A stretch of DNA of 39,186 bases from an uncultured bacterium (GCA_903921365.1 CAIXPS010000321.1:1-39186), one strand, 5' to 3'; shown: positions 5,092-17,679, counted from the stretch's first letter. Numbers and translations: made by a program. The notes: a model not told the origin generated them from the letters alone.

Positions 5092-6240
5092 CTAATAACG
5101 GAATATGGCCGCAACGGATGACCCGTTGGGCATCATCTGGCGATCCAGGGCGTACACTGTGCCGCCATGCAACAGGGTATGCGCGGCGGCGAAGTCGAGC
5201 ATGTCCTCGCTGCCGGGCTGCGGGGAATCGTACTCGTGCACAGCGCCGACCTCCGGCGCGTAACTGCCCCACGATTGCGCATCGCTTTGCACAAACAGCA
5301 ATTCCACGCGTCCCTGGAATGCGGCGGGCGCCACCTGACCGATCCGGTGCGATGCGCGCGGTGTATTGGCGATCTGCTGATAGTAGTCGGCGGCATCCAG
5401 GCGCGCCTTCTCGAAGACCGGTTGCGCAATGCTCCAGGCGTGTTTGTAAAGTTCTTCGATTGCCAGCTCGTCCGGATTACCGCTGATCTGGGTTTCCATC
5501 AGCGGTTTATAGGTGTTCACTTCCTTATACATCGGGAACAGAAAGTCCACGCCGGCAAATACGAGCGGTGCAGGCGCCTTCAAATATTTGATAACGCCGT
5601 CGTTCACCTGGTGAAGGTAGCGGTGGATGTGCTCCTTGTTCAGGTCTGATTGCGCTCCCAGGCCATAGAATACAGCATCGCCCTTGCCAGGTCGGGTGTT
5701 GGTCAAGGTGCGGAACTGGACTTGCCGGGCCTGTGTGTCGATATTGAGCGCCTCATCGAGTCCCTTTGGCATGTCCTTCAGTTCGATTTCACGCGCGCCG
5801 CTTTGAGTTGCCTCTAACAGGCGCACCTTGTTCTGGCTGAGCGCCAGAATATAGCAGCGGCGGTCGCTGGTCAACAGTTGCAGAATCGGCTTGATGTGGA
5901 AACGCTCACCCACAATCACAAGTTCGTCAGACTTCGCGGGCATCTTGTAATACCTGAACAGGCGCGGGGAGATAAATACCGTGAGGCTTTCATCCTGGTG
6001 CTGCCAGAACAAGCTGTCCTCGAGCAATTTTCGGGCAGGTTCCAGAAGTTGCTGCGTATCCGCTTGTCGCATACCGCTGTTGATGAGACGCTCTTCAGCG
6101 TCGCGGAGCAGCTTCTTAAACCGAATCGGATTTTGACGCGTGTCAACGCCATTACGCAGTGTGGGCAGCGTCAGAGTTACAAACGGACCTGTCTTCGCCT
6201 CTACCAGATTTTTCAGTTCGTCGACGGTCATCTTGTTCAT
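5092..6240 (-). CDS. Bacterial eRF1-like (baeRF family) protein
   Basis: A 382-aa cytosolic protein that resembles the bacterial archaeo-eukaryotic release-factor homologues (baeRF). It starts with a MTVDELKNL helix and a 'VTLTLPT' strand. A middle domain has the LTVFISPRLFRYYKMP and FHIKPILQLL patterns, and the C-terminal third carries an L7Ae-like region (GRVELLFVQSD ... TLLHGGTVYALD). By comparative genomics these proteins are proposed to act at stalled ribosomes or in stress response; experimental data are few. ATG 6240 is chosen over the longer frame to 6261 because AAGGAG sits 7 bases upstream. The gene is divergent from the exporter operon at 6481 and looks monocistronic. Subfamily was not determined. 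Confidence 0.78.
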   Translation of the reverse strand: MNKMTVDELKNLVEAKTGPFVTLTLPTLRNGVDTRQNPIRFKKLLRDAEERLINSGMRQADTQQLLEPARKLLEDSLFWQHQDESLTVFISPRLFRYYKMPAKSDELVIVGERFHIKPILQLLTSDRRCYILALSQNKVRLLEATQSGAREIELKDMPKGLDEALNIDTQARQVQFRTLTNTRPGKGDAVFYGLGAQSDLNKEHIHRYLHQVNDGVIKYLKAPAPLVFAGVDFLFPMYKEVNTYKPLMETQISGNPDELAIEELYKHAWSIAQPVFEKARLDAADYYQQIANTPRASHRIGQVAPAAFQGRVELLFVQSDAQSWGSYAPEVGAVHEYDSPQPGSEDMLDFAAAHTLLHGGTVYALDRQMMPNGSSVAAIFRY

Positions 6241-6480
6241 ACGTTCACTCCTTCGAGACAAGCTAACTTGTCATCAAAACACTTCTGACCGAGAAAAAGC
6301 GCGACCTTCCATGCAACTACAAACTAATTTACACCTCCCCTCTGGATATTGTAGGACTGTTTCGTTAACATACATCCATGGACGCCCCATGACCGCAGTC
6401 ACCACCTGAAGTGACCATGGCTACTGGCAAGCTCAGCCCGCACTCTTTACACTGACTTCCAGCAATAACAGAGGGTGAAC
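6241..6480. promoter_or_regulatory. Divergent intergenic region (baeRF gene / exporter operon)
   Basis: This 240-base region must hold the promoters for both divergent genes. Near its right end AGAGGG provides the ribosome binding site for ATG 6481, and near its left end AAGGAG on the minus strand serves ATG 6240. A short inverted pair GTCAC ... GTGAC (around 6400) is visible. I see no convincing consensus -35/-10 pair, so the promoter positions are not assigned. Confidence 0.4.
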
Positions 6481-8073
6481 ATGAAACAGAAAAGACTTCC
6501 AGTCATAGCCGTTGGACTACTCGCAAGCGCCGCGCTCATCGCCGGGTGCACAGCGCCAGGAGCGACAGGCACAACTAGCGCCGCGTCAAAGAGCGCTCAG
6601 AGCACCGGTCAACGCATTACTATTCAGACAGGCTCGATCAGTAACCATATCATCGGCACCGGGACAATCGTTTCGCGTGCGACCGCCCAACTGGCATTCT
6701 CGCACTCGGGCACCGTGAAAACGGTCAATGTAAAGATCGGTGATGCTGTCAAGGCTGGGCAAGTGCTGGCCACGATTGATACCACCGACCTCGAACTGTC
6801 GGCCAAGAGCCAGTATGCCAGCTATATTAACGCACTGGCCGCCTATAGCCAGACAGTGCAGGGACCCACAAATTCGGATTTACAGGCCGCGAAGTCCGGA
6901 GTCATTGCAGCGCAGGAAGCCTACAGCACGTCGCTGCAGGGCGCAACCTCGGCTGATTTGAACTCGGCCTATGTTGCATACCAAAGCGCCCAGGCGGCGC
7001 TCAACCAGTTGACTGTCCCGCCAACGCAGTATGATACGGCTTCCGCCGAGGCCGCCATGCTAAACGCCAAGGCCGCGCTCGACAGCGCACAGGCATCGTA
7101 TGACTCGGCGTATAAGCGCGATCCTGCCGGCATTGGCGGGTCAAGCGCCGGGCTAAACCTGCAACAGGCCACGAACAACTATGCTTCGGCCAAAGCGGCT
7201 TACGACAAGCTGTTCCAGCCGGCCACGGCGAACACCATTGCGTCTGCCAAGGCGCAGATCGCTTCGGCGCAATCCAACCTGTCCAACCTTCAGCCGACAG
7301 CGGAGAAGATTGCCTCGGCCAAACAGGCGCTTGACACTGCGCAATCCAAGCTCGACAGCCTGACGCCAACTGATGTCGTCATTTTGCAAGCCAAGGCCAA
7401 ACTCGATCAGGCCGCGATTGCATATCAACAGTCCGAGAAAGCCGTTACCGATGCAACGATCAAGTCGCCTTTCGACGGCATGATTGCGACGGTGAGCATC
7501 GATGTGGGCGATTCGACCGGCGCCGGCACGGCCATCGAAGTGGCCGATTTCACCGTCCCGCAGTTCCAGGTCAACGTAGATGAAGCCGACCTGGGCAACG
7601 TGAAAGTGGGCGCGGATGCGACTGTTCAACTTCAGACCTACCCGAATGTCGCGATCCCTGCCAAAGTGGAGACTGTGGATTCTACAGGCACAACATCCGG
7701 CAACATCGTGACCTTCAAGGTGTATCTGTCGATTGGCAAAGCCCAATTACCGGATGGAACAGTGCCGACAATTCTGCTCGGCATGAGCGGCACTTCCCAG
7801 ATCGTGACGCAGAAGGCCGACAATGCCACACTAGTGCCCAATAATGCGCTGATCGTGGATGCGCAGACCAAGGCATTCAGCGTGAACAAACTGAACGCAG
7901 ATGGAACTGTGACCGTCACGCCGATTACCGTGGGTTTCCGCGGCACGGATAGCGTGCAGGCGCTCACCGGCGTGAAGCCCGGCGATGTGCTGGTGCTCCC
8001 CGGCGCGGCGGGTGTCAACACGAATGGCGGTTTCGGCGGAGCCGGTGGTGGTCGCCCCGGAGGTGGAGGCTAA
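6481..8073 (+). CDS. Lipoprotein membrane-fusion (HlyD/MacA-like) subunit of an ABC exporter
   Basis: A 530-aa periplasmic-adaptor-type protein. It has a type II signal peptide with lipobox LIAGC (Cys 23), then a Thr/Ser linker. A biotinyl-lipoyl half-motif follows (FSHSGTVKTVNVKIGDAVKAGQVLATID, near 73-100), then an exceptionally long Ala/Gln/Ser-rich coiled-coil hairpin (about 105-325). The second lipoyl half (ATIKSPFDGMIATVSIDVGD) and beta-barrel domains come next. The tail is Gly-rich. ATG 6481 is preferred over GTG 6475 because GAGGG lies 5 bases upstream. The stop is one base from the ATPase gene. Role (family knowledge): couples MacB-type ABC transporters to substrate delivery outside the cytoplasmic membrane. 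The substrate is unknown. Confidence 0.93.
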   Translation: MKQKRLPVIAVGLLASAALIAGCTAPGATGTTSAASKSAQSTGQRITIQTGSISNHIIGTGTIVSRATAQLAFSHSGTVKTVNVKIGDAVKAGQVLATIDTTDLELSAKSQYASYINALAAYSQTVQGPTNSDLQAAKSGVIAAQEAYSTSLQGATSADLNSAYVAYQSAQAALNQLTVPPTQYDTASAEAAMLNAKAALDSAQASYDSAYKRDPAGIGGSSAGLNLQQATNNYASAKAAYDKLFQPATANTIASAKAQIASAQSNLSNLQPTAEKIASAKQALDTAQSKLDSLTPTDVVILQAKAKLDQAAIAYQQSEKAVTDATIKSPFDGMIATVSIDVGDSTGAGTAIEVADFTVPQFQVNVDEADLGNVKVGADATVQLQTYPNVAIPAKVETVDSTGTTSGNIVTFKVYLSIGKAQLPDGTVPTILLGMSGTSQIVTQKADNATLVPNNALIVDAQTKAFSVNKLNADGTVTVTPITVGFRGTDSVQALTGVKPGDVLVLPGAAGVNTNGGFGGAGGGRPGGGG

Positions 8074-8074
8074 T

Positions 8075-9547
8075 ATGATTGAGCTTAAGAATATCACCAA
8101 GCTTTATCAGATGGGTGATGAGATGGTGCATGCGCTACAGGATGTCAACTTAACGATCGAAGATGGCGAATATGTCGCCATCATCGGTCCCTCCGGCAGC
8201 GGTAAAAGCACACTGATGAACATCCTGGGATGTCTGGATATTCCCACGTCCGGCTCATATAACTTGAACGGCACCATGGTCAGCAAGATGCGCGAGAGTC
8301 AGTTGGCCACAGTGCGCAACAAGAACATCGGGCTGATCTTTCAGAATTTCAACCTGCTCGGCAAGGCAACCGCCATCCGCAATGTGGAGTTGCCGGCGCG
8401 CTATGGCGGTATCGGCCCGGCCGAACGGCACAAGCGCGCGGTAGCCGCCATGACATCCGTAGGTCTGGCGCACCGGTTGCACCATCGTCCAACTGAGCTT
8501 TCAGGCGGTCAGCAGCAGCGTGTGGCCATTGCGCGCGCGCTGGTGAACAACCCGCACATCCTCTTGGCGGACGAACCGACTGGCGCTCTCGACAGCAAGA
8601 CAGGCAAGGAAATCCTCGATCTGTTTGAGCAGTTGCAGCGTGAGAATGGCATCACAGTCATCGTCATCACGCACGACCCGAACGTGGCGCGGCGCGCCCA
8701 TCGCGTGATTACAATCCGCGACGGCCACATCGAGAGCGATATCGCCCGCCAGGTTGGCAAGGATGGCGTCGAGACGGTAATCGTGCATAAGCAGGCAGAA
8801 CCTGTCGGGATGGTAGAAGAAGCTCCGGTAGCAGCTTATACCGAAGAGACTGCTGCCGAGGCTGCCAAGAAAAAGGCGATGCTCAAGGAAGGGCCGATAC
8901 CCGTCAAGCGTCTAGCCATCCTCGGCGTGATCGGCGTCGTAATTGCGATTGTGGTGAACGCTATTCTCAGCCAGATCGCCTACTCGGTGCTCAACCTGCG
9001 CGCGCCGATGCTTCAGTTACAGCAGGTGGCGACCTTCACGGCGGTTGGCACTGTGCTTGCGGTGCTGGTCTATGCGTTGATCAACCGATTCGCCAAACGC
9101 CCGGTGTGGCTGTTCCGCATCATTGCTGCTGTCGCGTTGGTGCTGTCGATCGTCCCGGATGTCGGTCTTGCGACTGGATTGTTTAATCCATTTACACTGT
9201 TCGGCGGCGGCGGTCAACGCGGCGCTGGGGCTGGAGCAGCTGCAGCTGCCAATGGCGCAACGCCGGCGCCCGACGCCAGCGGCGCAACGCCGACTCCTGC
9301 GGCTGGTGGCGCGCAGCGCGCCGGCGGCGGTGCAGCAATTCGCGGCGGCGGTGGAATTGGCGGGTTGGCTTTCGGAGGTCGCGCAACTGGCGCCGGTGGG
9401 ACTCGCGGTCAGTCGCCGCTGGAATTGCCGGGCTCCCTGGCTGTGTTGCACATCGTTGCCTATGGCATCGTTGTTGGTGTGCTTACCCGACGGCCTCGGG
9501 TCAAGAAAGGGAAGGTTTCCGGCCGGGCTGTGGGTGTGGCGAAGTAA
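8075..9547 (+). CDS. MacB-type ABC ATPase fused to a C-terminal membrane domain
   Basis: A 490-aa protein starting at ATG 8075, with GGAGG upstream inside the previous gene's end; the longer frame from 7985 only overlaps that gene. Residues 1-225 are a complete LolD/MacB-like ATPase: Walker A GPSGSGKST (38-46), signature LSGGQQQR (142-149), Walker B ILLADEPT (162-169) and switch His200. An acidic Ala-rich linker (about 240-270) then leads to a second domain with four predicted spans (about 280-303, 317-337, 346-366 and 453-471). The layout is reminiscent of DUF6069-like four-helix domains. A 75-residue Gly/Ala/Pro-rich loop separates spans 3 and 4. Stand-alone family members end at about 230 residues, so this fusion is unusual. 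Downstream is the FtsX-type permease. Confidence 0.93.
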   Translation: MIELKNITKLYQMGDEMVHALQDVNLTIEDGEYVAIIGPSGSGKSTLMNILGCLDIPTSGSYNLNGTMVSKMRESQLATVRNKNIGLIFQNFNLLGKATAIRNVELPARYGGIGPAERHKRAVAAMTSVGLAHRLHHRPTELSGGQQQRVAIARALVNNPHILLADEPTGALDSKTGKEILDLFEQLQRENGITVIVITHDPNVARRAHRVITIRDGHIESDIARQVGKDGVETVIVHKQAEPVGMVEEAPVAAYTEETAAEAAKKKAMLKEGPIPVKRLAILGVIGVVIAIVVNAILSQIAYSVLNLRAPMLQLQQVATFTAVGTVLAVLVYALINRFAKRPVWLFRIIAAVALVLSIVPDVGLATGLFNPFTLFGGGGQRGAGAGAAAAANGATPAPDASGATPTPAAGGAQRAGGGAAIRGGGGIGGLAFGGRATGAGGTRGQSPLELPGSLAVLHIVAYGIVVGVLTRRPRVKKGKVSGRAVGVAK

Positions 9548-9575
9548 GCCAGCTACCCACGAATAGGAGAATGCT

Positions 9576-10787
9576 ATGAGTTTATTAGAGTTATTACAGA
9601 CCGCGCTGGAAAGCCTGACGTCGAACAAGCTGCGCACGTTCCTGACGATGCTCGGCGTGATTATCGGCGTGGCGGCGGTCGTCACCCTGCTTTCCATTGG
9701 CGCAGGCGTGCAGGCGTCCATCGACAGTCAGATTACGTCGATGGGTTCGAACCAGTTGAACATTTCGCCCAACCGTCAGGTTACAGGCGCGCGTTTGACC
9801 GTGGATGATGCCACCGCGATCGCCGACAAGCTCAACGTGCCTGATGCGTTGCGCGTCGTGTCGGTGGTACAGGGCGGCGCTTCCGTGACAGCCGGCATCA
9901 ACAAGGATTCGCCGGAGATTATGGGCACGACGCCCGAATACTTCGCGATGAAGAACGTCAACATCGCGCAGGGCGCCTCATTCACGCAGGCCGACGTGGA
10001 TCAGCGCCTGCGCGTTGCGGTGGTAGGCCCTACGCTGGCTACCAACCTTTTCCCCGGCCAGGCCGCGCTGGGTCAGACCTTCCTGATCGGCAGCGTGCCC
10101 TTCCGCATTGTGGGCATTCTGGAGACGAAGGGCGGCACCGGCTTCGGCGGCACTGACGATAGCGCGTTTGTCCCGTTGACAGTTGCGGCGGAAAAGCTGT
10201 TCGTCAACCGCAACGGTGGGTTGAAGTCAGTGAACAGCATCACGGTCGAAGCAGTGTCGGCAGAACGCAGCGCTGACGCGCTGACTGAAATAGCCGCTAT
10301 ATTGCGCAGCCGCCACAACATCCTGATCGGGGCCCCGGATGACTTCCGCATCTTCGACCAGGCCTCACTCGTCGCGACACTGAACACCGTCGTCGGAACA
10401 CTGACCGCATTCCTCGGCGCCATCGGCGCGATCTCGCTGCTGGTCGGCGGCATCGGCATCATGAACATCATGCTCGTCAGCGTAACCGAACGCACCCGCG
10501 AGATCGGCGTGCGCAAGGCCATCGGCGCGCAGCCGTTCGCCATCCAGCTTCAGTTCCTGATTGAGGCGCTGACGGTGACGATCGTCGCTGGCGTGATCGG
10601 CATCCTCTTATCGGTGGGACTCGTCACTGTAATCAATTCGGTGCAGACCAGCGTCACACCGGTTATCCAGAGCAATTCCGTGATCATCGCGTTTACTGTG
10701 TCGGTCCTGATTGGCGTCCTCTTCGGATTCTACCCGGCATGGCGCGCCAGCCGGCTCGAGCCAGTTGAAGCATTGCGCTATGAGTAG
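9576..10787 (+). CDS. FtsX/MacB-type ABC transporter permease
   Basis: A 403-aa permease with the MacB layout. It has an N-terminal transmembrane helix after SNKLRTFLTMLGVIIGVAAVV, a large extracytoplasmic MacB_PCD domain (about 45-265), then three C-terminal spans starting with FLGAIGAISLLVGGIGIMNIM. The conserved ERTREIGVRKAIGA coupling motif that contacts the ATPase follows, and the gene ends in RASRLEPVEALRYE, the classic C-terminal signature. AGGAG lies 6 bases before ATG 9576. With the adaptor and ATPase genes it makes a tripartite mechanotransmission-type exporter, commonly used for peptides, lipids or antimicrobials. The substrate is not readable. Confidence 0.95.
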   Translation: MSLLELLQTALESLTSNKLRTFLTMLGVIIGVAAVVTLLSIGAGVQASIDSQITSMGSNQLNISPNRQVTGARLTVDDATAIADKLNVPDALRVVSVVQGGASVTAGINKDSPEIMGTTPEYFAMKNVNIAQGASFTQADVDQRLRVAVVGPTLATNLFPGQAALGQTFLIGSVPFRIVGILETKGGTGFGGTDDSAFVPLTVAAEKLFVNRNGGLKSVNSITVEAVSAERSADALTEIAAILRSRHNILIGAPDDFRIFDQASLVATLNTVVGTLTAFLGAIGAISLLVGGIGIMNIMLVSVTERTREIGVRKAIGAQPFAIQLQFLIEALTVTIVAGVIGILLSVGLVTVINSVQTSVTPVIQSNSVIIAFTVSVLIGVLFGFYPAWRASRLEPVEALRYE

Positions 10788-10796
10788 CGCATAAAC

Positions 10797-10840
10797 GGTG
10801 GTATATACCACCAGGTGACCACACATGGTTGCTGTACAAT
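10797..10840 (+). promoter_or_regulatory. Candidate operator (16-bp palindrome) and -10 element before the sensor kinase
   Basis: GGTGGTATATACCACC at 10797-10812 is a perfect 16-bp palindrome in the gap after the permease stop. A good -10 hexamer TACAAT lies at 10835-10840; the matching -35 position falls on or next to the palindrome and is poor by consensus. A promoter blocked or activated by a dimeric protein at the palindrome would fit. The regulator is unknown and none is encoded adjacent. Confidence 0.5.
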
Positions 10841-10856
10841 TGCCAGGTAAGGTCAA

Positions 10857-10886
10857 GGCGCAGGGTGATACAAATCACCCTGCGCC
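10857..10886 (+). terminator. Strong hairpin (13-bp stem, 4-base loop) between permease and kinase genes
   Basis: GGCGCAGGGTGAT (10857-10869) pairs exactly with 10874-10886 around the loop ACAA. There is no T-tract after it, so it is not a textbook intrinsic terminator. It could end the exporter transcript, cap a leader RNA for the kinase operon, or attenuate readthrough. If the kinase began at ATG 10825 this hairpin would lie inside the coding sequence, which is one reason to prefer ATG 10927. Confidence 0.6.
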
Positions 10887-10926
10887 ATTAGTCTCAGGCG
10901 CTCAAGGCGCCATACAGTTCACCGGT

Positions 10927-12210
10927 ATGAAGCAGGTCATCAGTCTCATCCGCCTGACATTGTTATTGCGCATCGCGACATCGATCGTGGGTGTGCTGGT
11001 GGTGCTTACTTTTCTGCCCACCACTGCCCCGGTCTATATCGAGTTGGCTGCCGTAGTGCCCTCGCTGCTGTTGCTGGTGGTGGTGTTCATTGCGCCACTG
11101 CGAGGCTGGGAGACGCCACGCTTTGTCAAAGGGTTGCTGGTAGCGGCGATTGTGGCCGAGGCGCTTGAGGCAGTCATCAGCCGATTGGGGCTGCAACTGG
11201 TTGCGGCGGCGAGTGGAATGGATGTGGGTGAGTTCTACCGTCGCAACGTTGGATTTCCGGTGGAGTGGTCTCTCATGCGGTTACCCTTAAACGGGCCGCT
11301 GCTTTTCATCACTATTCCGGCGGTGCTGGGCGGGTGGATCGACGGCAAAAAGGGTTCCCTGCGCTGGGCGGCCTTTACGGTGCTGATGACCCTGCTGTCC
11401 ACGATTGCAACCACGTCGCCCGAGTTCACGCAATGGCGTCTGAACATCGGCGTGTTTGGCGCGCAGGCGATTGTCGTGTTTATCACCACCTTCTTTGTGG
11501 CAACTCTGGCCGACCAGCAAAGAGCCGAGCAAACCGAGATCGAAACCGCCAACCGCAAGCTGGCCGAACAGGCGCTGGTGCGCGAGCAACTGGCGACTTC
11601 GCGCGAACGCGTGCGACTGGCGCGCGATCTGCACGACACACTGGCGCACACGCTGGCAGGCCTGGTGGTGCAGGCAAACGTGGTGGATACACTATTCGGG
11701 AAAGACCCGGTAGCAGCCCGGCGCGAACTCGCTCGCGTGCAGAGCGTGGCCAGACAGGGGCTGTTGGATGCGCGCGCAGCCATCAGCGATCTGCGCGCCA
11801 ACATCGTCGAGGATCTTGGACTGGCCAGCGCGTTACAACGCCAGCTTGAGATGATGGGGCAGCGCGCCGGCCTGCAAGTGGACTTTGAGCGCAGCGGCGA
11901 CGAACCCCAACTGGATAAAGCCCACGCCGAGGCGCTCTTCCGCATCGTGCAGGAGGCGTTGAATAACGTGGAACGTCACGCCAATGCATCGCATGTGAGC
12001 GTATGTATGGAGCAGAATCCGTTGCCCGACCGAATCCTGACCGTGCGCATCAAGGACGACGGGATCGGGTTTGAGGAGACGGCGCTGGATGATGAGCGTT
12101 TCGGTCTGCGCGGGATGCGCGAGCGCGCCGAACTGATCGGCGCACACCTGCGCATCGACAGCATCGTCGGCGCCGGCACCACTGTCAGCATCACCTATCG
12201 ACAGGAGTAG
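10927..12210 (+). CDS. NarL-type membrane sensor histidine kinase (HisKA_3)
   Basis: A 427-aa protein from ATG 10927. The first 200 residues contain five or six hydrophobic spans and form a membrane sensor without a large periplasmic domain. A short coiled-coil (ADQQRAEQTEIETANRKL) leads to the HisKA_3 dimerisation helix with phospho-acceptor His236 in LARDLHDTLAH. The HATPase domain has the N-box EALNNVERHA, G1 DDGIGF and G2 GLRGMRERAE. An upstream ATG at 10825 has a reasonable AGGTG at 7-base spacing and would add 34 residues, but that stretch is not hydrophobic and spans a perfect hairpin. The response regulator lies three genes downstream (14236). The stimulus is unknown; the neighbouring exporter suggests an envelope signal. 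Confidence 0.92.
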   Translation: MKQVISLIRLTLLLRIATSIVGVLVVLTFLPTTAPVYIELAAVVPSLLLLVVVFIAPLRGWETPRFVKGLLVAAIVAEALEAVISRLGLQLVAAASGMDVGEFYRRNVGFPVEWSLMRLPLNGPLLFITIPAVLGGWIDGKKGSLRWAAFTVLMTLLSTIATTSPEFTQWRLNIGVFGAQAIVVFITTFFVATLADQQRAEQTEIETANRKLAEQALVREQLATSRERVRLARDLHDTLAHTLAGLVVQANVVDTLFGKDPVAARRELARVQSVARQGLLDARAAISDLRANIVEDLGLASALQRQLEMMGQRAGLQVDFERSGDEPQLDKAHAEALFRIVQEALNNVERHANASHVSVCMEQNPLPDRILTVRIKDDGIGFEETALDDERFGLRGMRERAELIGAHLRIDSIVGAGTTVSITYRQE

Positions 12211-12221
12211 AACCCCCTAAA

Positions 12222-13214
12222 TTGAAATCCGTGCGTTGGAAAACCCTGCTGACATGGGGAGTTGCATTGGCGCTTGTGGTGTTTCTACTGGCGCAGATAT
12301 CGTTGCAGACGCTGGTCGATCTATTTACTCATGTGAACATCCTCGGGGTTGCACTGGGTGCAGGCGTCTATATGCTTACGAATGTCATCCGGGCGTGGCG
12401 CGTGGTGCAGATTTGCGACCGCCCACTGGCGGACACCTGGCCGCTGCTGACGCCCACGCTGGCCTCCAGTTTTGGCAACAACGTGCTGCCTGCGCGCGCT
12501 GGCGAACCGATCTTTGTCTGGGCGGCGCATGAGCGGCTGGGCTTAAGCTGGGGCGCCAGTTCAGCAGTCATGATCATCATGCGCGTGTTCGACACGATGA
12601 TGGTGGCCGTCATATTCGTGTTTGCGGCAGTAGTCACAGGCGCGGCGGCATCTTCACTCATTCTGTGGGTCATTTCGGTGGCACTGGGCGGCGCGGTCAT
12701 CGTCACGGCGCTATTGCCATGGTTCGGCGGTTACCTGGTCAATCTGTTTGTCGCGGCAGTGCGGCTCACTCGCCGGGCAAAGCTCGTTGCGTTTCTTGAG
12801 CACGAAGGCGCCCGCGCCGCAGACGCGTTCAAGCAGTTGCGCGCGCCGCGCATCTACGCTGGCGTCGTCCTGTCGTCGCTCGCGATCTGGCTGATGATTT
12901 TTGGCTGGATATTTATGTTGATGCGCAGCATCGGGATTGAGGTCAGGCTTGATCAATCGATCCTGGGTTCTACCTTCGGCATTCTGTCGAAGGCCGTCCC
13001 GTTCTCATCCATCGGCGGTTGGGGCGCGCACGAGGTCGGCTGGACAGCCGGTTTTATGCTGATCGGTTTCCCCAGTTCGCTCGCGATCAGCAGCGGGTTT
13101 GCGGTGAATACGCTGATCATCCTCACTTCCGCCGTATGCGGGCTGCCGGCGTGGCTATCGCTGTCGAGCGATCAGGCGAAGGGAAAGCGCGCCAGGGATG
13201 GGGATTCGAGATAG
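12222..13214 (+). CDS. Lysylphosphatidylglycerol synthase/UPF0104-type flippase-like membrane protein
   Basis: A 330-aa protein with about eight hydrophobic segments and the hallmarks of the UPF0104 / LPG_synthase_TM family: NVIRAWRVVQI, then SSFGNNVLPARAGEP early on, and late SSIGGWGAHEVGW. Family members include the membrane half of MprF and AglD-associated proteins; many sit beside GT2 glycosyltransferases and are thought to move or act on polyprenyl- or lipid-linked substrates. Here the next gene is such a GT2 enzyme. The likely start is TTG 12222, with AGGAG about 14 bases upstream; GTG 12231 is an alternative. It is 11 bases after the kinase stop, hence same operon. Confidence 0.88.
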   Translation: MKSVRWKTLLTWGVALALVVFLLAQISLQTLVDLFTHVNILGVALGAGVYMLTNVIRAWRVVQICDRPLADTWPLLTPTLASSFGNNVLPARAGEPIFVWAAHERLGLSWGASSAVMIIMRVFDTMMVAVIFVFAAVVTGAAASSLILWVISVALGGAVIVTALLPWFGGYLVNLFVAAVRLTRRAKLVAFLEHEGARAADAFKQLRAPRIYAGVVLSSLAIWLMIFGWIFMLMRSIGIEVRLDQSILGSTFGILSKAVPFSSIGGWGAHEVGWTAGFMLIGFPSSLAISSGFAVNTLIILTSAVCGLPAWLSLSSDQAKGKRARDGDSR

Positions 13215-13237
13215 CCAGGAAATTATGAGTTAATTAA

Positions 13238-14239
13238 ATGGTGAGCCGCCCCTTGAATTTATTTGTGCAGATTTGCGCGTTGAATGAAGAGGATACCATT
13301 GGCAAGGTGATCCGCGATATCCCGCGCCAGGTGGATGGCGTCGCGTCGGTGCATGTCGTCGTCGTCAACGACGGCTCAACCGACAACACCGTGCAAACGG
13401 CGACGGAGGCGGGCGCCGACATTGTCGTCAGTCACCACGCCAACAAAGGATTGGCGCGCGCTTTCCAGACCGGCATCGACACCTGCCTGGGATATGGCGC
13501 CGACATCATTGTGAACATTGACGCCGATGGGCAGTATGAGGCCGCCGATATCGGCAAGTTAATCGCGCCGATCATCTTGCAGCAAGCCGATATGGTTATC
13601 GGAGATCGCCAGGTGCAGGGCATGACGCATTTTTCGCCCGTCAAACGTCTCTTTCAGTGGCTGGGCAGCCAGATCGTGCAGTTGGCGTCCGGCATACGCA
13701 TCCCCGATGCGGTATCGGGATTTCGCGCCTATTCTCGTGAGACGGCCCTGCGCATGTACGTCACATCAAATTTCTCCTACACCGTGCAGACGTTGATCCA
13801 GGCAGGCAAACTCGGCCTGGCCGTGCGCAGCGTGCCAATCCGCGCGCGCGCAACGACTCGCCCGTCACGCTTGCATCGCGGCACGCTGCATTTCATGAGC
13901 CAGCAGGCGGCGATACTCGTGCGCACCTATGTGACCTACGAACCGCTGAAGACATTCCTCACACTTTCCGCCCCATTCCTGTTGATTGGCGCGGTGCTCA
14001 TCATGCGCTTGATCATTCTCGCCGCCGAACAGGGCGGCCAGTTTGTCGGGCGATTGCAGTCGCTGGTTGCCGGCATGGTGAGCCTTGTGATTGGATTACT
14101 GCTCGTCATCACGGGTATCATCGCGGATCGCGTCCGCGAGAATCGCCGCTTGCTGGAGGAACTCATGTATCGCGTCCGCGAGCAGGACACGCACCGCTAT
14201 GTGTTACCCGACGACAGCAACAGGAGCGCTAAACAATGA
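13238..14239 (+). CDS. GT2 family polyprenyl-phosphate glycosyltransferase (DPM1/GtrB-like)
   Basis: A 333-aa protein. The N-terminal GT-A domain starts with LFVQICALNEEDTIGKVI, the nucleotide-binding VVVNDGSTDNT (41-51) and the metal-binding DADGQ (95-99). The later VSGFRAYSR and a basic R-rich stretch match dolichol-phosphate mannose synthase relatives. Two hydrophobic C-terminal segments (about 243-265 and 280-300) anchor it in the membrane, and a short cytoplasmic tail follows. Expected role from the family: transfer of a sugar from a nucleotide donor to a polyprenyl phosphate. The previous gene encodes a flippase-like protein and the stop overlaps the response-regulator ATG as ATGA (14236-14239), so translation is coupled. 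Confidence 0.92.
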   Translation: MVSRPLNLFVQICALNEEDTIGKVIRDIPRQVDGVASVHVVVVNDGSTDNTVQTATEAGADIVVSHHANKGLARAFQTGIDTCLGYGADIIVNIDADGQYEAADIGKLIAPIILQQADMVIGDRQVQGMTHFSPVKRLFQWLGSQIVQLASGIRIPDAVSGFRAYSRETALRMYVTSNFSYTVQTLIQAGKLGLAVRSVPIRARATTRPSRLHRGTLHFMSQQAAILVRTYVTYEPLKTFLTLSAPFLLIGAVLIMRLIILAAEQGGQFVGRLQSLVAGMVSLVIGLLLVITGIIADRVRENRRLLEELMYRVREQDTHRYVLPDDSNRSAKQ

Positions 14240-14916
14240 GCAAAATAAGAGTGTTGATCGCTGACGACCAGGAGATCATTCGTCAGGGGCTGGCGGTAAT
14301 CATGGATAACCAGGACAACATCATCACGGTTGGACAGGCCAGCGATGGCGTGGAGGCTGTGCGGATGGCGCGGGAACTGCGCCCCGATGTGGTGCTGATG
14401 GATGTCAAGATGCCGCACATGAATGGTATTCAGGCCACGCGCGCGATCACCAGCGAACTCCCGCAGACCCAGGTCATCATCCTCACAACCTACGACATCG
14501 ACGACTGGGTGTTTGAGGGCATTCGCGCTGGCGCGCAGGCGTACCTGCTCAAAGACGCCGGCACCGAAGATCTGGCGAACGCCATTCGCGGTGTGCATCG
14601 CGGTGAATCGCAACTCGACCCCGCCATTGCGCGCAAGGTCATGGCCGAGTTCCGCCGGATGAGTGGCCCAGCGCAGATACAGCAGAGGACGCCGCAACCC
14701 GCCGAGGAGCTTGTAATGGAGGCGCTCACGGAGCGCGAGACGGAAGTCCTCGGGCTGATCGCGCAGGGGCTAGGCAACAAGGACATTGCGTTGAAGCTGT
14801 TCCTCAGCGAAGGCACGGTGAAGAACTATGTCAGCAGCATCATGGAGAAGTTGCACGCCAATGACCGCACCCAGGTGGTGATCAAGGCCGTGCGCCACGG
14901 CATGGTTAAGCTGTAA
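14236..14916 (+). CDS. NarL/LuxR-family response regulator
   Basis: A 226-aa two-domain regulator. The receiver domain has the acidic pair D10-D11, phospho-acceptor Asp56 in VVLMDVKMPHMNG, the switch Thr in VIILTTYD and the conserved Lys in YLLKDAG. A linker rich in Gln/Pro (about 140-160) leads to a GerE/LuxR helix-turn-helix (LTERETEVLGLIAQGLGNKDIA ... EGTVKNYVSSIMEKL). It is the obvious partner of the HisKA_3 kinase at 10927, although the flippase-like and glycosyltransferase genes separate them. A T-rich stretch (CCCTTTTACTCCTTTTTTAC) lies just beyond the stop but no stem precedes it. Likely targets, by proximity, are the exporter operon, its own operon and the secreted protein downstream. 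Confidence 0.95.
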   Translation: MSKIRVLIADDQEIIRQGLAVIMDNQDNIITVGQASDGVEAVRMARELRPDVVLMDVKMPHMNGIQATRAITSELPQTQVIILTTYDIDDWVFEGIRAGAQAYLLKDAGTEDLANAIRGVHRGESQLDPAIARKVMAEFRRMSGPAQIQQRTPQPAEELVMEALTERETEVLGLIAQGLGNKDIALKLFLSEGTVKNYVSSIMEKLHANDRTQVVIKAVRHGMVKL

Positions 14917-15058
14917 TCGCCCCTTTTACTCCTTTTTTACATCTGCCCCATACCGCCATTACAACTCTGGCGCATGATCATTCTTGTCAGAAGCGACAAC
15001 ATCATGGCCTTGCATCCATAAGGAAGGCTGACAGGAAAACGCTAAAGGAGAAAATGAA

Positions 15059-15601
15059 ATGGCAATCAAAAATCTGTTCAAGAAAGTCGTTGCGAGTGGG
15101 GTAATCGTGTCTGCATTGATCGGGGGCGCATCCTTGGCGCCGTCGCTTGCGGCGCGCGCAGAGCAGGCGAATCCGCCGGTCGTGACGGCTCAAGCCGCCC
15201 GACCAATCGTCGAAAAGGGTTTGGCGCGCGCCTTGAAGGTCGAGTTGCGAATCCAGGATCGGCAGAGCAAACGTCTGGATGGCGCGAGCAAAGTCGTGAC
15301 AAAGGTGCAGGAGATCATCGATAAAGCAACAGCGGCAGGGAAGGATGTCAGCGCGCTCAACACAGCGCTCGACGCGTACAAGGATGCCGTGAGCAAGGCG
15401 AAAGGTATCCACGAGGCCGCTGGCGACATCCTCAAAGAGCACACCGGATTTGCTGACGGTAAAGTAACGGACAAGGTTGCAGCAAAGACAACGGTCACGA
15501 CTGCCGGAGCAAAGCAGAAGGAGTTTGCTGAGACGTTTAAACAGGCCCACACCTCCCTCAAGGATGCTCTCAAAACGTGGAAGCAGGCGAACACAAAGTA
15601 G
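15059..15601 (+). CDS. Secreted all-helical protein, unknown function
   Basis: A 180-aa protein with a clear signal peptide: basic MAIKNLFKK, hydrophobic VVASGVIVSALIGGASLA and a likely cleavage after AARA near residue 34. The mature part is Lys/Ala/Thr-rich and helical with heptad-like spacing (ASKVVTKVQEIIDKATAAGKDVSALNTALDAYKDAV), so a small helical bundle outside the membrane is likely. AAAGGAG lies 8 bases before ATG 15059; an overlapping ATG at 15054 is out of frame. It follows the response-regulator gene by 142 bases, so it may have its own promoter or belong to that regulon. I do not recognise a named family; short helical envelope-stress proteins are one analogy. Confidence 0.8.
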   Translation: MAIKNLFKKVVASGVIVSALIGGASLAPSLAARAEQANPPVVTAQAARPIVEKGLARALKVELRIQDRQSKRLDGASKVVTKVQEIIDKATAAGKDVSALNTALDAYKDAVSKAKGIHEAAGDILKEHTGFADGKVTDKVAAKTTVTTAGAKQKEFAETFKQAHTSLKDALKTWKQANTK

Positions 15602-15609
15602 CCGACAAG

Positions 15610-17679
15610 TTACCTCGGAACAATCGTCAACAGCCTGTCGATAACCACGATAGGCTGTTCCGGCCTGGCAGGGTCGAAATACACTGCATTAATCTTCTGA
15701 TTGGGGTCGAACAAGCTGAGCTTGAGATGGTAGTCTCCAGTTGCATCAGCCGGGATGTTCAAACGAACCGTGCTGATGATGTAGCTGCCCGGTTGCCAGT
15801 TCCATCCGATGATGGCCGGGGCATTGTCAATACTGACGACCTTGGCGCCGTCAGGCCGCGCGAGATCGATAAAGGGTGCGAAGTACCAGAACCAATGCGA
15901 CTCAGTGGGCAGCGAGTCGATCCGCCAGACATGCGTCACCGTGATCATCTCGCCCGGTCTTGCTGTGGCCGGCGTCTCCAGGTCGACTAATGACCAACCC
16001 AGGTTAACCGTGAGCGGGGTAAACCCCTTGCGCAGGAACAGCTCGATGGGTTTGGATCGATAGCTGACCACGTCCGTATCCGGCGCGACTTGCAGCGGAT
16101 ACGCTTCCGCATTCTGCGGTATCGGTTGGCCAGGCAGACGCACCACGCAGTCGCCGCCTTGCGGACTCACCCGCCAGACATCAGACTGGTTTCGCGCGTC
16201 GCTGGTGCCATTGCCGACCCGGTCGCTAGCCTCGAATAGGCTGACGTTTGCCCAATATAACTCTTCGGAGCTATCGACTCTGTCACAGTGGGCGCGCAAT
16301 AGATCTCCCAGTTGAAGCTGCCAGTGCAAGGGCAACCGCCCGATGTCAGGGCCGTAGTCCAATGGCGCCTTCATCAGGGTATCGGCCAAAGCGGCCAGAT
16401 TCGTAACCGGAACGATCATCGCTGCGCCGAGTGCAACTGACAGGACGCCATTGGCAACCAGATTCAGAACGCGCGTGGGCGCCGCGCACTTACGCGCCGC
16501 GCACTTATGCGCCCTGACCCGCCACACCTGCGCGAGTAGCCCGAACGGGATACCTGCGAGCAGGTATCCCGCCGGCGCGGTGATCAGCATATATTGGTAA
16601 GCCGGATACACGTTCGGGCGAAGCATGAGCAGGATCGTCAGCAACACAGCCGGCACGCCAAACCATGTCAGGGTGAGACGATAGCCCAGATTCGCGCGCA
16701 GGCGTATTACGGCAATGATGACGCCGATCCAGATCGCCCATCCCACGACAGCGGCTCGGATGTCGCTGAGTGTATTGCGCAGCGCAAAATCCGTTGCGTT
16801 CGGGTTAGTCCATTCATTCTCGAAGTCGAGACCCGTCACGATGCGTAGCCCGTGGTTAAAGCCCGCCAGGTCAATATGCAGCCCAAACGGGTTAGGCAAC
16901 GAAGGAGGCGTTGTCGCCACATTTTTCAGACCCGACTGCAGTTGGGTGATTGGATTCAGGTCATTCACCAGCAGTAATACCACGAAGACCAACCCACTCA
17001 ATACGCACACCGCAAAGCCCAGCACTGCCGGCTTGGATAGCTTGCGGTCAACGCCCCATGCATACAACACAAGGAAGAAAACCTGGACGGCCAGCAGCAT
17101 CGCCATGAGATAGGTCTGCATGAGCACGGCCGCGACCACGAAGCCCACGAACAAACGGCGCCTGTTTCGTTGTTGGATGGACACAAAGATCAACCATGCG
17201 CAGGCGACCGCGGATATCTCCAACAGGCCTTGCACGCTGACACCCGTGGCCGTGATGATGGCCCAGGGGCTGCTGGCAGCCAACGCGGCGGAAACGAGAC
17301 CAGCGGTCTTGCCGAAGAAGCGCCTGCCCAGGTCATAAACCATGGCGACCCCTAACACATTCAGCATGGCGAATAGGGCTACCGAACAGAAGGGATTGCG
17401 TTCGAAAAACGAAAGTAAGGCCAGGAAGTAGCTTGTGCCGACTGGGTTGACCAGGTTGATATTCGACAACTGGCCGAGTAGAGGCAGGTCATGGAATCTA
17501 CCCGCCGCGATCGCGTCGAGGATCACAATACCCCCGGCATGCACCCGCACGTTTGGATGATCGAAACGAATCGTATCCAGCCAGAAGAAGCGAGCGGCAA
17601 ACGCGAATACCAGCAACAATAACGGAGCCCACAGGCGCTTAAATTGCATGATCAATGGCGAAAATTGACGTGAGTGCAT
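15610..17679 (-). CDS. Large polytopic membrane protein, PMT/ArnT-like glycosyltransferase (GT-C fold)
   Basis: A 689-aa protein. The first 440 residues contain about a dozen hydrophobic spans with the GT-C pattern: an early acidic loop after span 1 (FWLDTIRFDHPNVRVHAGG) and a second charged loop (NLVNPVGTSYF). Such enzymes transfer a sugar from a polyprenyl-phosphate donor on the outer face of the membrane. Residues about 450-689 form a soluble beta-rich domain (TVNLGWSLVDLETPATARPGEMITVTHVWRI ...), presumably extracytoplasmic. ATG 17679 has AAGG five bases upstream. The gene is 6 bases downstream of the PhyH gene in a URO-D/PhyH/GT run. A 15-bp tandem duplication and a 12-bp hairpin lie in its coding sequence. 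The exact family remains inferred. Confidence 0.8.
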   Translation of the reverse strand: MHSRQFSPLIMQFKRLWAPLLLLVFAFAARFFWLDTIRFDHPNVRVHAGGIVILDAIAAGRFHDLPLLGQLSNINLVNPVGTSYFLALLSFFERNPFCSVALFAMLNVLGVAMVYDLGRRFFGKTAGLVSAALAASSPWAIITATGVSVQGLLEISAVACAWLIFVSIQQRNRRRLFVGFVVAAVLMQTYLMAMLLAVQVFFLVLYAWGVDRKLSKPAVLGFAVCVLSGLVFVVLLLVNDLNPITQLQSGLKNVATTPPSLPNPFGLHIDLAGFNHGLRIVTGLDFENEWTNPNATDFALRNTLSDIRAAVVGWAIWIGVIIAVIRLRANLGYRLTLTWFGVPAVLLTILLMLRPNVYPAYQYMLITAPAGYLLAGIPFGLLAQVWRVRAHKCAARKCAAPTRVLNLVANGVLSVALGAAMIVPVTNLAALADTLMKAPLDYGPDIGRLPLHWQLQLGDLLRAHCDRVDSSEELYWANVSLFEASDRVGNGTSDARNQSDVWRVSPQGGDCVVRLPGQPIPQNAEAYPLQVAPDTDVVSYRSKPIELFLRKGFTPLTVNLGWSLVDLETPATARPGEMITVTHVWRIDSLPTESHWFWYFAPFIDLARPDGAKVVSIDNAPAIIGWNWQPGSYIISTVRLNIPADATGDYHLKLSLFDPNQKINAVYFDPARPEQPIVVIDRLLTIVPR
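15629..15659. terminator. Possible shared hairpin between converging genes
   Basis: AACAGCCTGTCG (15629-15640) is complementary to 15648-15659 at 11 of 12 positions around a 7-base loop. It lies within the last codons of the minus-strand gene that ends at 15610 and 28 bases after the plus-strand stop at 15601. A bidirectional terminator would fit the convergent arrangement, but flanking T/A tracts are weak. Confidence 0.3.
16479..16508. repeat. 15-bp tandem duplication inside the membrane glycosyltransferase gene
   Basis: GCGCCGCGCACTTAC at 16479-16493 is followed directly by a copy with one change (16494-16508). On the minus strand it encodes a repeated K-C-A-A-R/P pentapeptide in a cytoplasmic-loop-like stretch between hydrophobic segments. 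The reading frame is kept. Confidence 0.8.
16546..16571. repeat. 12-bp perfect inverted repeat within coding sequence
   Basis: CGGGATACCTGC (16546-16557) pairs with 16560-16571 across a 2-base centre, near-palindromic over 26 bases. It lies 37 bases from the tandem duplication at 16479-16508, within the same gene. It may be a chance feature of coding sequence or a pause/recombination site. Confidence 0.7.

Follow-up and report, generated by a model that had tools for sequence, protein, structure and literature searches.

Why should two genes of a putative lipid-linked sugar pathway lie between a sensor histidine kinase and its response regulator, and is their position meaningful or accidental? 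We asked this of a 39,186-nucleotide stretch of DNA from an uncultured bacterium (the window), which is the whole of contig C321 in the 6.88 Mb draft genome G000. Our sample of the genus, whose members are uncultured Chloroflexota, consisted of five genomes: G000 and four other species, G001-G004. The block is truncated by contig ends, on the left for G001 and on the right for G003. An initial annotation had placed kinase, flippase-like, GT2 and NarL-type regulator genes in this order on one strand, spaced by 11, 23 and -4 bases, the last an ATGA overlap. These coordinates and gaps were confirmed, and Pfam matches bore out the families it had named (HisKA_3 kinase, UPF0104/LPG-synthase-type protein, GT2 and NarL regulator). 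The genes of the region are as follows.

5092-6261, minus strand: baeRF_family7 gene (ribosome-hibernation/release-factor-like), divergent from the exporter and sharing the operator-bearing intergenic region
6481-8073, plus strand: membrane fusion lipoprotein (HlyD/RND-MFP type), kept in the genus and in sister genera
8075-9547, plus strand: MacB/LolD-type ABC ATPase with a C-terminal DUF6069 membrane domain
9576-10787, plus strand: MacB-type permease (MacB_PCD + FtsX)
10927-12210, plus strand: sensor histidine kinase, HisKA_3 + HATPase_c, with at least four predicted transmembrane (TM) segments
12222-13214, plus strand: LPG_synthase_TM (UPF0104/MprF-flippase-domain) protein, presumed lipid-linked sugar flippase, TTG start
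13238-14239, plus strand: predicted GT2 polyprenyl-phosphate glycosyltransferase (DPMS/ArnC/GtrB type) with two C-terminal TM helices
14236-14239, plus strand: ATGA junction of GT2 and regulator, where relatives have a GT-C gene and the window has none
14236-14916, plus strand: NarL/MadR-like response regulator, Response_reg (REC) + GerE in Pfam
15059-15601, plus strand: secreted 180-aa protein, family unassigned, 3' of the regulator in G000, G001 and G004
15610-17679, minus strand: GT-C-like gene, flanked by the genes for the secreted protein and PhyH

A HisKA_3 kinase with an H-box and a REC-GerE regulator together identify a NarL-type two-component system. The kinase matched HisKA_3 at 58 bits, in addition to HATPase_c, and its H-box RDLHDTLAH is invariant. 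Its longest reading frame opens at 10825, and the start is most likely the methionine at 10927, which is conserved: four of the five genus members have 'MKQVI' there. The two genes are not neighbors, lying 2.0 kb apart in the window and approximately 4.1-4.4 kb apart in G001, G002 and G004.

The flippase-like protein scored 96.6 bits against PF03706 (cut-off 33.4) and 32.4 bits against NCBIfam TIGR00374, which is under the cut-off of 43.2. Its AlphaFold model (pLDDT 79, from a 7-row alignment) matched four solved MprF structures with a Foldseek probability of 1.00 and TMq of 0.53-0.58, at E-values of only 0.02-0.04. A profile score above the cut-off and a modeled MprF flippase-domain fold place the protein in the PF03706/MprF family, with translocation presumed. 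Its named relatives are Chloroflexota/Anaerolineae metagenome assemblies. The GT2 scored 79.6 bits against PF00535, and profile matches gave DPMS (5mlz, 5e-16), ArnC (9hwj, 1e-15) and GtrB (5ekp, 1e-9) as its nearest solved structures. These matches, along with the C-terminal TM helices, point to the polyprenyl-phosphate synthase type. Searches by sequence for solved structures of the flippase-like protein and the GT-C returned no matches. No GtrA/SMR-type flippase was found in the cluster, leaving the PF03706 gene, which carries no other Pfam family, as the sole candidate. In G003 the flippase and GT2 form a single 685-aa reading frame, flippase first, and this natural fusion argues for joint function. 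Archaeal UPF0104/pfam03706 proteins lie beside AglD-like glycosyltransferases and PMT-family enzymes, and a flippase function has been predicted for them (PMC5898192).

To what extent is this order maintained? MacB, kinase, flippase and GT2 come in one order in all five genus genomes, and the regulator comes after the glycan genes in all four whose contigs reach it. The genus order is the divergent baeRF gene, MFP, ABC, MacB, kinase, flippase, GT2 and regulator, then the 180-aa secreted protein (G001, G004). Identity of the genus relatives to the window proteins was 64-81% for the kinase, 74-86% for the flippase, 63-77% for the GT2 and 79-88% for the regulator. Relative to G001, the nearest relative, dN/dS (NG86) was 0.06-0.11 for all four genes with dS near saturation, which indicates that all four are under purifying selection. 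Given that the order is kept in four other species, at these identities and dN/dS values, the four-gene unit is real and maintained. Kinase identity falls to about 64% among species keeping the order, which indicates more than chance.

Outside the genus the picture was different. The expectation that kinase and regulator genes usually adjoin proved true of the kinase's own subfamily, wherein the two are adjacent in 18 of the 19 non-genus loci having both. In the kinase tree, the genus members formed a clade of their own (99/98), which lay inside a clade of the family (99/99). The closest kinase homologues, from sister genera and other Anaerolineae families, reside in MFP-ABC-MacB-kinase-regulator operons or bare kinase-regulator pairs, with no glycan genes. 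Among 28 genomes of the order, the flippase type was present in 5/5 from the genus versus 0/23 others. These comparisons imply that the association of kinase, regulator and exporter is ancient, with an ancestral order of MFP-ABC-MacB-HK-RR. Since the pair adjoins and glycan genes are missing outside the genus, while the intervening cassette is genus-wide, the parsimonious reading is that the ancestor of the genus gained a glycan cassette by insertion between the two signaling genes. The initial annotation had held that an adjacent pair in relatives would make the arrangement a local insertion. Checking the neighborhood upheld the insertion but not its being local, as G001-G004 have the same order as the window genome.

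Distant Anaerolineae orthologues occur in GT2-flippase-GT-C or flippase-GT-C clusters, mostly without kinase or regulator. Because the trio lacks a two-component system in most of these orthologues, it is a portable module. In G044 (L058 4631-11636), the GT2-flippase-GT-C trio comes immediately before a MacB-type ABC ATPase and an MFP, with no two-component system, and this represents a second association of the trio with a MacB-type exporter. The single non-adjacent locus outside the genus (G014, L100 2302-3029, minus strand) has a thioredoxin-like gene between kinase and regulator, inserted independently at this junction.

We next consider control of these genes, for which a check for regulator binding sites upstream of 6481, 10927 and 15059 had been proposed. 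A candidate operator was found before 6481; position 10927 is instead preceded by a TACAAT element and a hairpin, and 15059 by another conserved element, with no TGAC operator found upstream of it. The elements are as follows.

6390-6415, plus strand: double operator TGACCGCAGTCAC-N7-AGTGAC upstream of the exporter, an exact match to TGACYNNRGTCAYN7AGTGAC
6424-6453, plus strand: promoter-like -35 CTGGCA, 18-bp spacer and -10 TACACT, abutting the operator
10835-10886, plus strand: -10-like TACAAT(TG) and then a perfect hairpin with 13-bp arms (10857-10886), located between MacB and kinase, a leader or terminator
14936-14963, plus strand: promoter-like element before the 180-aa secreted protein gene, distinct from the TGAC operator

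The double operator (TGACYNNRGTCAC-N7-AGTGAC) has a single occurrence in the 6.88 Mb of G000. The block upstream of the exporter reads CATGACCGCAGTCACCACCTGAAGTGACCATGGCTACTGGCA at 6388-6429, followed by the 18-bp spacer and TACACT. This -35/-10 geometry is identical in the G004 exporter promoter and in both the exporter and glycan-unit promoters of G003. With at most one mismatch, TGACYNNRGTCAYN7AGTGAC matched once in G000, once in G004 (at the same place), twice in G003 and nowhere else in the five genomes, wherein a reversed control pattern had 0 matches. The second copy in G003 precedes YflT-PRC-[flippase::GT2]-GT-C. In G002 the operator is degenerate, and the G001 contig lacks its position. 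Of 18 non-genus operons, 9 have the core TGAC-N4-GTCA close to their start, versus 0-1 for nine control palindromes, although the computed probability (4e-15) is indicative only because the motif had already been noticed at some of these loci when the set of regions was tested. The double operator is probably bound by the NarL-type regulator, an assignment made by co-occurrence, with 9 of the 18 tested homologous operons lacking the core.

The hairpin at 10857-10886 has 13-bp arms that are 100% complementary and a fold z of -7.3. G003 and G004 have TACAAT and a hairpin sharing its outer stem, GGCGCAG/CTGCGCC, at the equivalent place. These elements between MacB and kinase suggest that the exporter and kinase units are perhaps partly separate transcripts. 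The block 6481-15601 had been proposed to form one system. This stands insofar as glycan genes, signaling pair and exporter are a maintained unit; however, the hairpin and -10-like element split exporter from kinase in three species, and 15059-15601 has its own upstream element, which matched once per genome in G000, G001 and G004, directly upstream of the orthologue. Likewise, the proposal that the glycan module and signaling pair are produced together gains from the operator shared by the exporter promoter and glycan unit of G003. The window has the operator before the exporter alone, and the kinase is preceded by the strong hairpin and -10-like element, which leaves co-induction of the glycan genes there a conjecture. 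A perfect 16-bp palindrome, GGTGGTATATACCACC, in the gap between MacB and kinase (10797-10812) was considered as an operator and set aside, as it is absent at the corresponding place in relatives.

Our preferred reading, with a rough probability of 0.68, is that an Anaerolineae operon of a MacAB-like exporter (MFP-ABC-MacB) and NarL-type two-component system captured an extracytoplasmic glycosylation cassette and serves an envelope-stress response. The membrane-embedded kinase would detect an envelope disturbance and phosphorylate the regulator, which would bind the double operator next to the exporter's -35 and increase exporter expression. Glycan genes would be raised too, by read-through or from a second operator copy. 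The GT2 would then put a sugar on polyprenyl phosphate, the MprF-flippase-like protein would turn the lipid-linked sugar to the outside, and a GT-C enzyme would transfer it to a surface acceptor. That the arrangement is kept in at least four species suggests surface glycosylation may be switched on together with export. More tentatively, and at odds we place slightly below even, an exporter-only two-component system has been rewired, through a cassette within the gene pair and spread of the operator, into a joint export and surface-glycosylation response that uses an MprF-type polyprenyl-phosphate-sugar flippase.

Chance alone could instead have placed the cassette between the two signaling genes, where it would be transcribed only at a basal level, with no link to signaling or export. 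We consider such passive insertion unlikely. It would accommodate the existence of the glycan trio elsewhere without a two-component system, the kinase-regulator-exporter operons of sister genera that do without the cassette, the hairpin and separate -10-like element before the kinase, and the failure to find an operator directly before the window's glycan genes. However, the cassette holds the same position in five species over deep divergence and under purifying selection, and the operator and promoter geometry before the glycan unit of G003 are hard to explain without selection for co-regulation.

The captured cassette was originally a flippase-GT2-GT-C trio. A complete PMT_2-like GT-C gene of 640-740 aa lies between GT2 and regulator in G001, G002 and G004, and the G003 contig ends within a GT-C gene after the GT2, the partial sequence being 80% identical to G004. 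In the window there is no GT-C at this place, and the GT2 abuts the regulator directly. Elsewhere in the window genome, contig C270 carries one further member of this subfamily, located behind the gene for a CCA-adding enzyme; this GT-C belongs within the operon GT-C clade (97/99). No GT-C lies behind the CCA locus in G001-G003, and the G004 contig ends there. Because the relatives' slot is filled, the window's is empty, and the CCA locus elsewhere lacks a GT-C, the comparison indicates loss of the GT-C from the slot in the window's lineage, with a divergent relative on C270. At only about 44% identity to the operon copies, the C270 gene may be an old paralogue and not a moved gene.

Under the captured-cassette reading, the GT-C step in the window genome would come from elsewhere. 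The C270 copy may be doing this work, or the GT-C-like gene at 15610-17679 may substitute functionally. The latter was also considered as the moved operon GT-C and rejected as an orthologue, having no tblastn match at the operon GT-C genes. It is absent at the equivalent place in G001, and its homologues within the genus are no more than weak, with identities of only 35% and 26%.

The empty slot would also suit a different product, in which the sugar-lipid made by GT2 and turned by the flippase is itself the end product and protects the membrane, the GT-C is unneeded and its loss is tolerated. This would be in keeping with a GT-C dispensable in the window's slot while GT2 and flippase remain under purifying selection, and there is precedent in HexSDF and GpgSDF, each of which has a glycosyltransferase coupled to an MprF-like flippase (PMC10128005, PMC12713373). 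Nevertheless, glycolipid modification is quite improbable, given a GT2 of polyprenyl-phosphate and not HexS or GpgS type, a GT-C that follows in all four genus relatives and most distant modules, and no deacetylase gene. Finally, the kinase might sense the glycan pathway itself, through the amount of either polyprenyl-linked sugar or free carrier lipid, with the regulator adjusting the pathway in a feedback loop. In favor of this are gene adjacency and the parallel between the window's missing GT-C and the envelope stress response triggered by trapped UndP-sugar without GT-C, to which Bacillus subtilis sigma-M responds (PMC11898649). Such a loop is very improbable, however, because no glycan-binding domain was found in the kinase with Pfam and the closest kinases, which align from end to end with the membrane region included, are found without glycan genes, so this glycan is not the ancestral signal.

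How does the captured cassette compare with known systems? Like the three-component GtrA-GtrB-GtrC and CsbB-GtcA-YfhO systems, the relatives encode a polyprenyl-phosphate GT2, flippase and GT-C together. Here, however, the flippase is LPG_synthase_TM/UPF0104 and not GtrA/SMR, the genes lie between a kinase and its regulator, and the GT-C is displaced in the window genome. Three-component systems with other flippase families are known (PMC11127046, PMC7389260). Archaeal AglD/UPF0104 neighborhoods share the same three protein families and a GT2-flippase fusion, but ours is bacterial, linked to a two-component system and exporter, and fused in G003 as flippase then GT2, the reverse of AglD (PMC5898192). 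HexRK-HexSDF of Clostridioides difficile likewise has a two-component system beside an MprF-like flippase and an envelope-altering glycosyltransferase, and HexRK controls both of these genes (PMC10128005). It differs in its adjacent kinase and regulator, MGDG-synthase-like HexS, deacetylase and lack of an exporter in the cluster (PMC10128005); our locus has a GT2 in place of the MGDG-synthase-like enzyme and no polysaccharide deacetylase within 5092-17679. LnrJK-LnrLMN of Bacillus subtilis is similar in clustering a two-component system with an ABC transporter, which LnrJK controls, whereas the exporter here is of MacB/MFP type and glycan genes separate kinase from regulator (PMC7472640). A literature search on the arrangement in Chloroflexi, or on a TGAC palindrome for NarL/DesR-type regulators, found nothing relevant. 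The arrangement is new, with parts of known kinds.

The captured-cassette reading would represent stepwise gain of a glycosylation output by an envelope-stress operon within one bacterial family: an ancestral operon, cassette insertion, gene fusion, an operator copied before the cassette and later displacement of one enzyme. It would also offer testable genomic evidence for UPF0104/MprF-domain proteins as bacterial polyprenyl-phosphate-sugar flippases, for which direct evidence is scarce, and a candidate operator for this regulator subfamily in Chloroflexota.

Several observations concern neighboring genes. The baeRF_family7 gene is present at the equivalent position in G002, G003 and G004. 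The DUF6069 domain of the ATPase comprises four TM segments after a Gly/Ala-rich linker, and alignment of the G002 orthologue is limited to the ATPase part. In G003 (L032 2692-3977, minus strand), two genes, one for a stress protein resembling YflT and the other for a PRC-barrel protein, lie between the kinase and the flippase::GT2 fusion, with the second double-operator copy upstream of them. A 227-aa secreted reading frame beside a paralogous pair on C320 was considered as a relative of the 180-aa protein and proved unrelated. In the same genome, a paralogous kinase/regulator pair (L120 2165-7888) adjoins genes similar to those of contractile tail sheaths/injection systems, and a TGAC-N4-GTCA palindrome lies upstream of its kinase.
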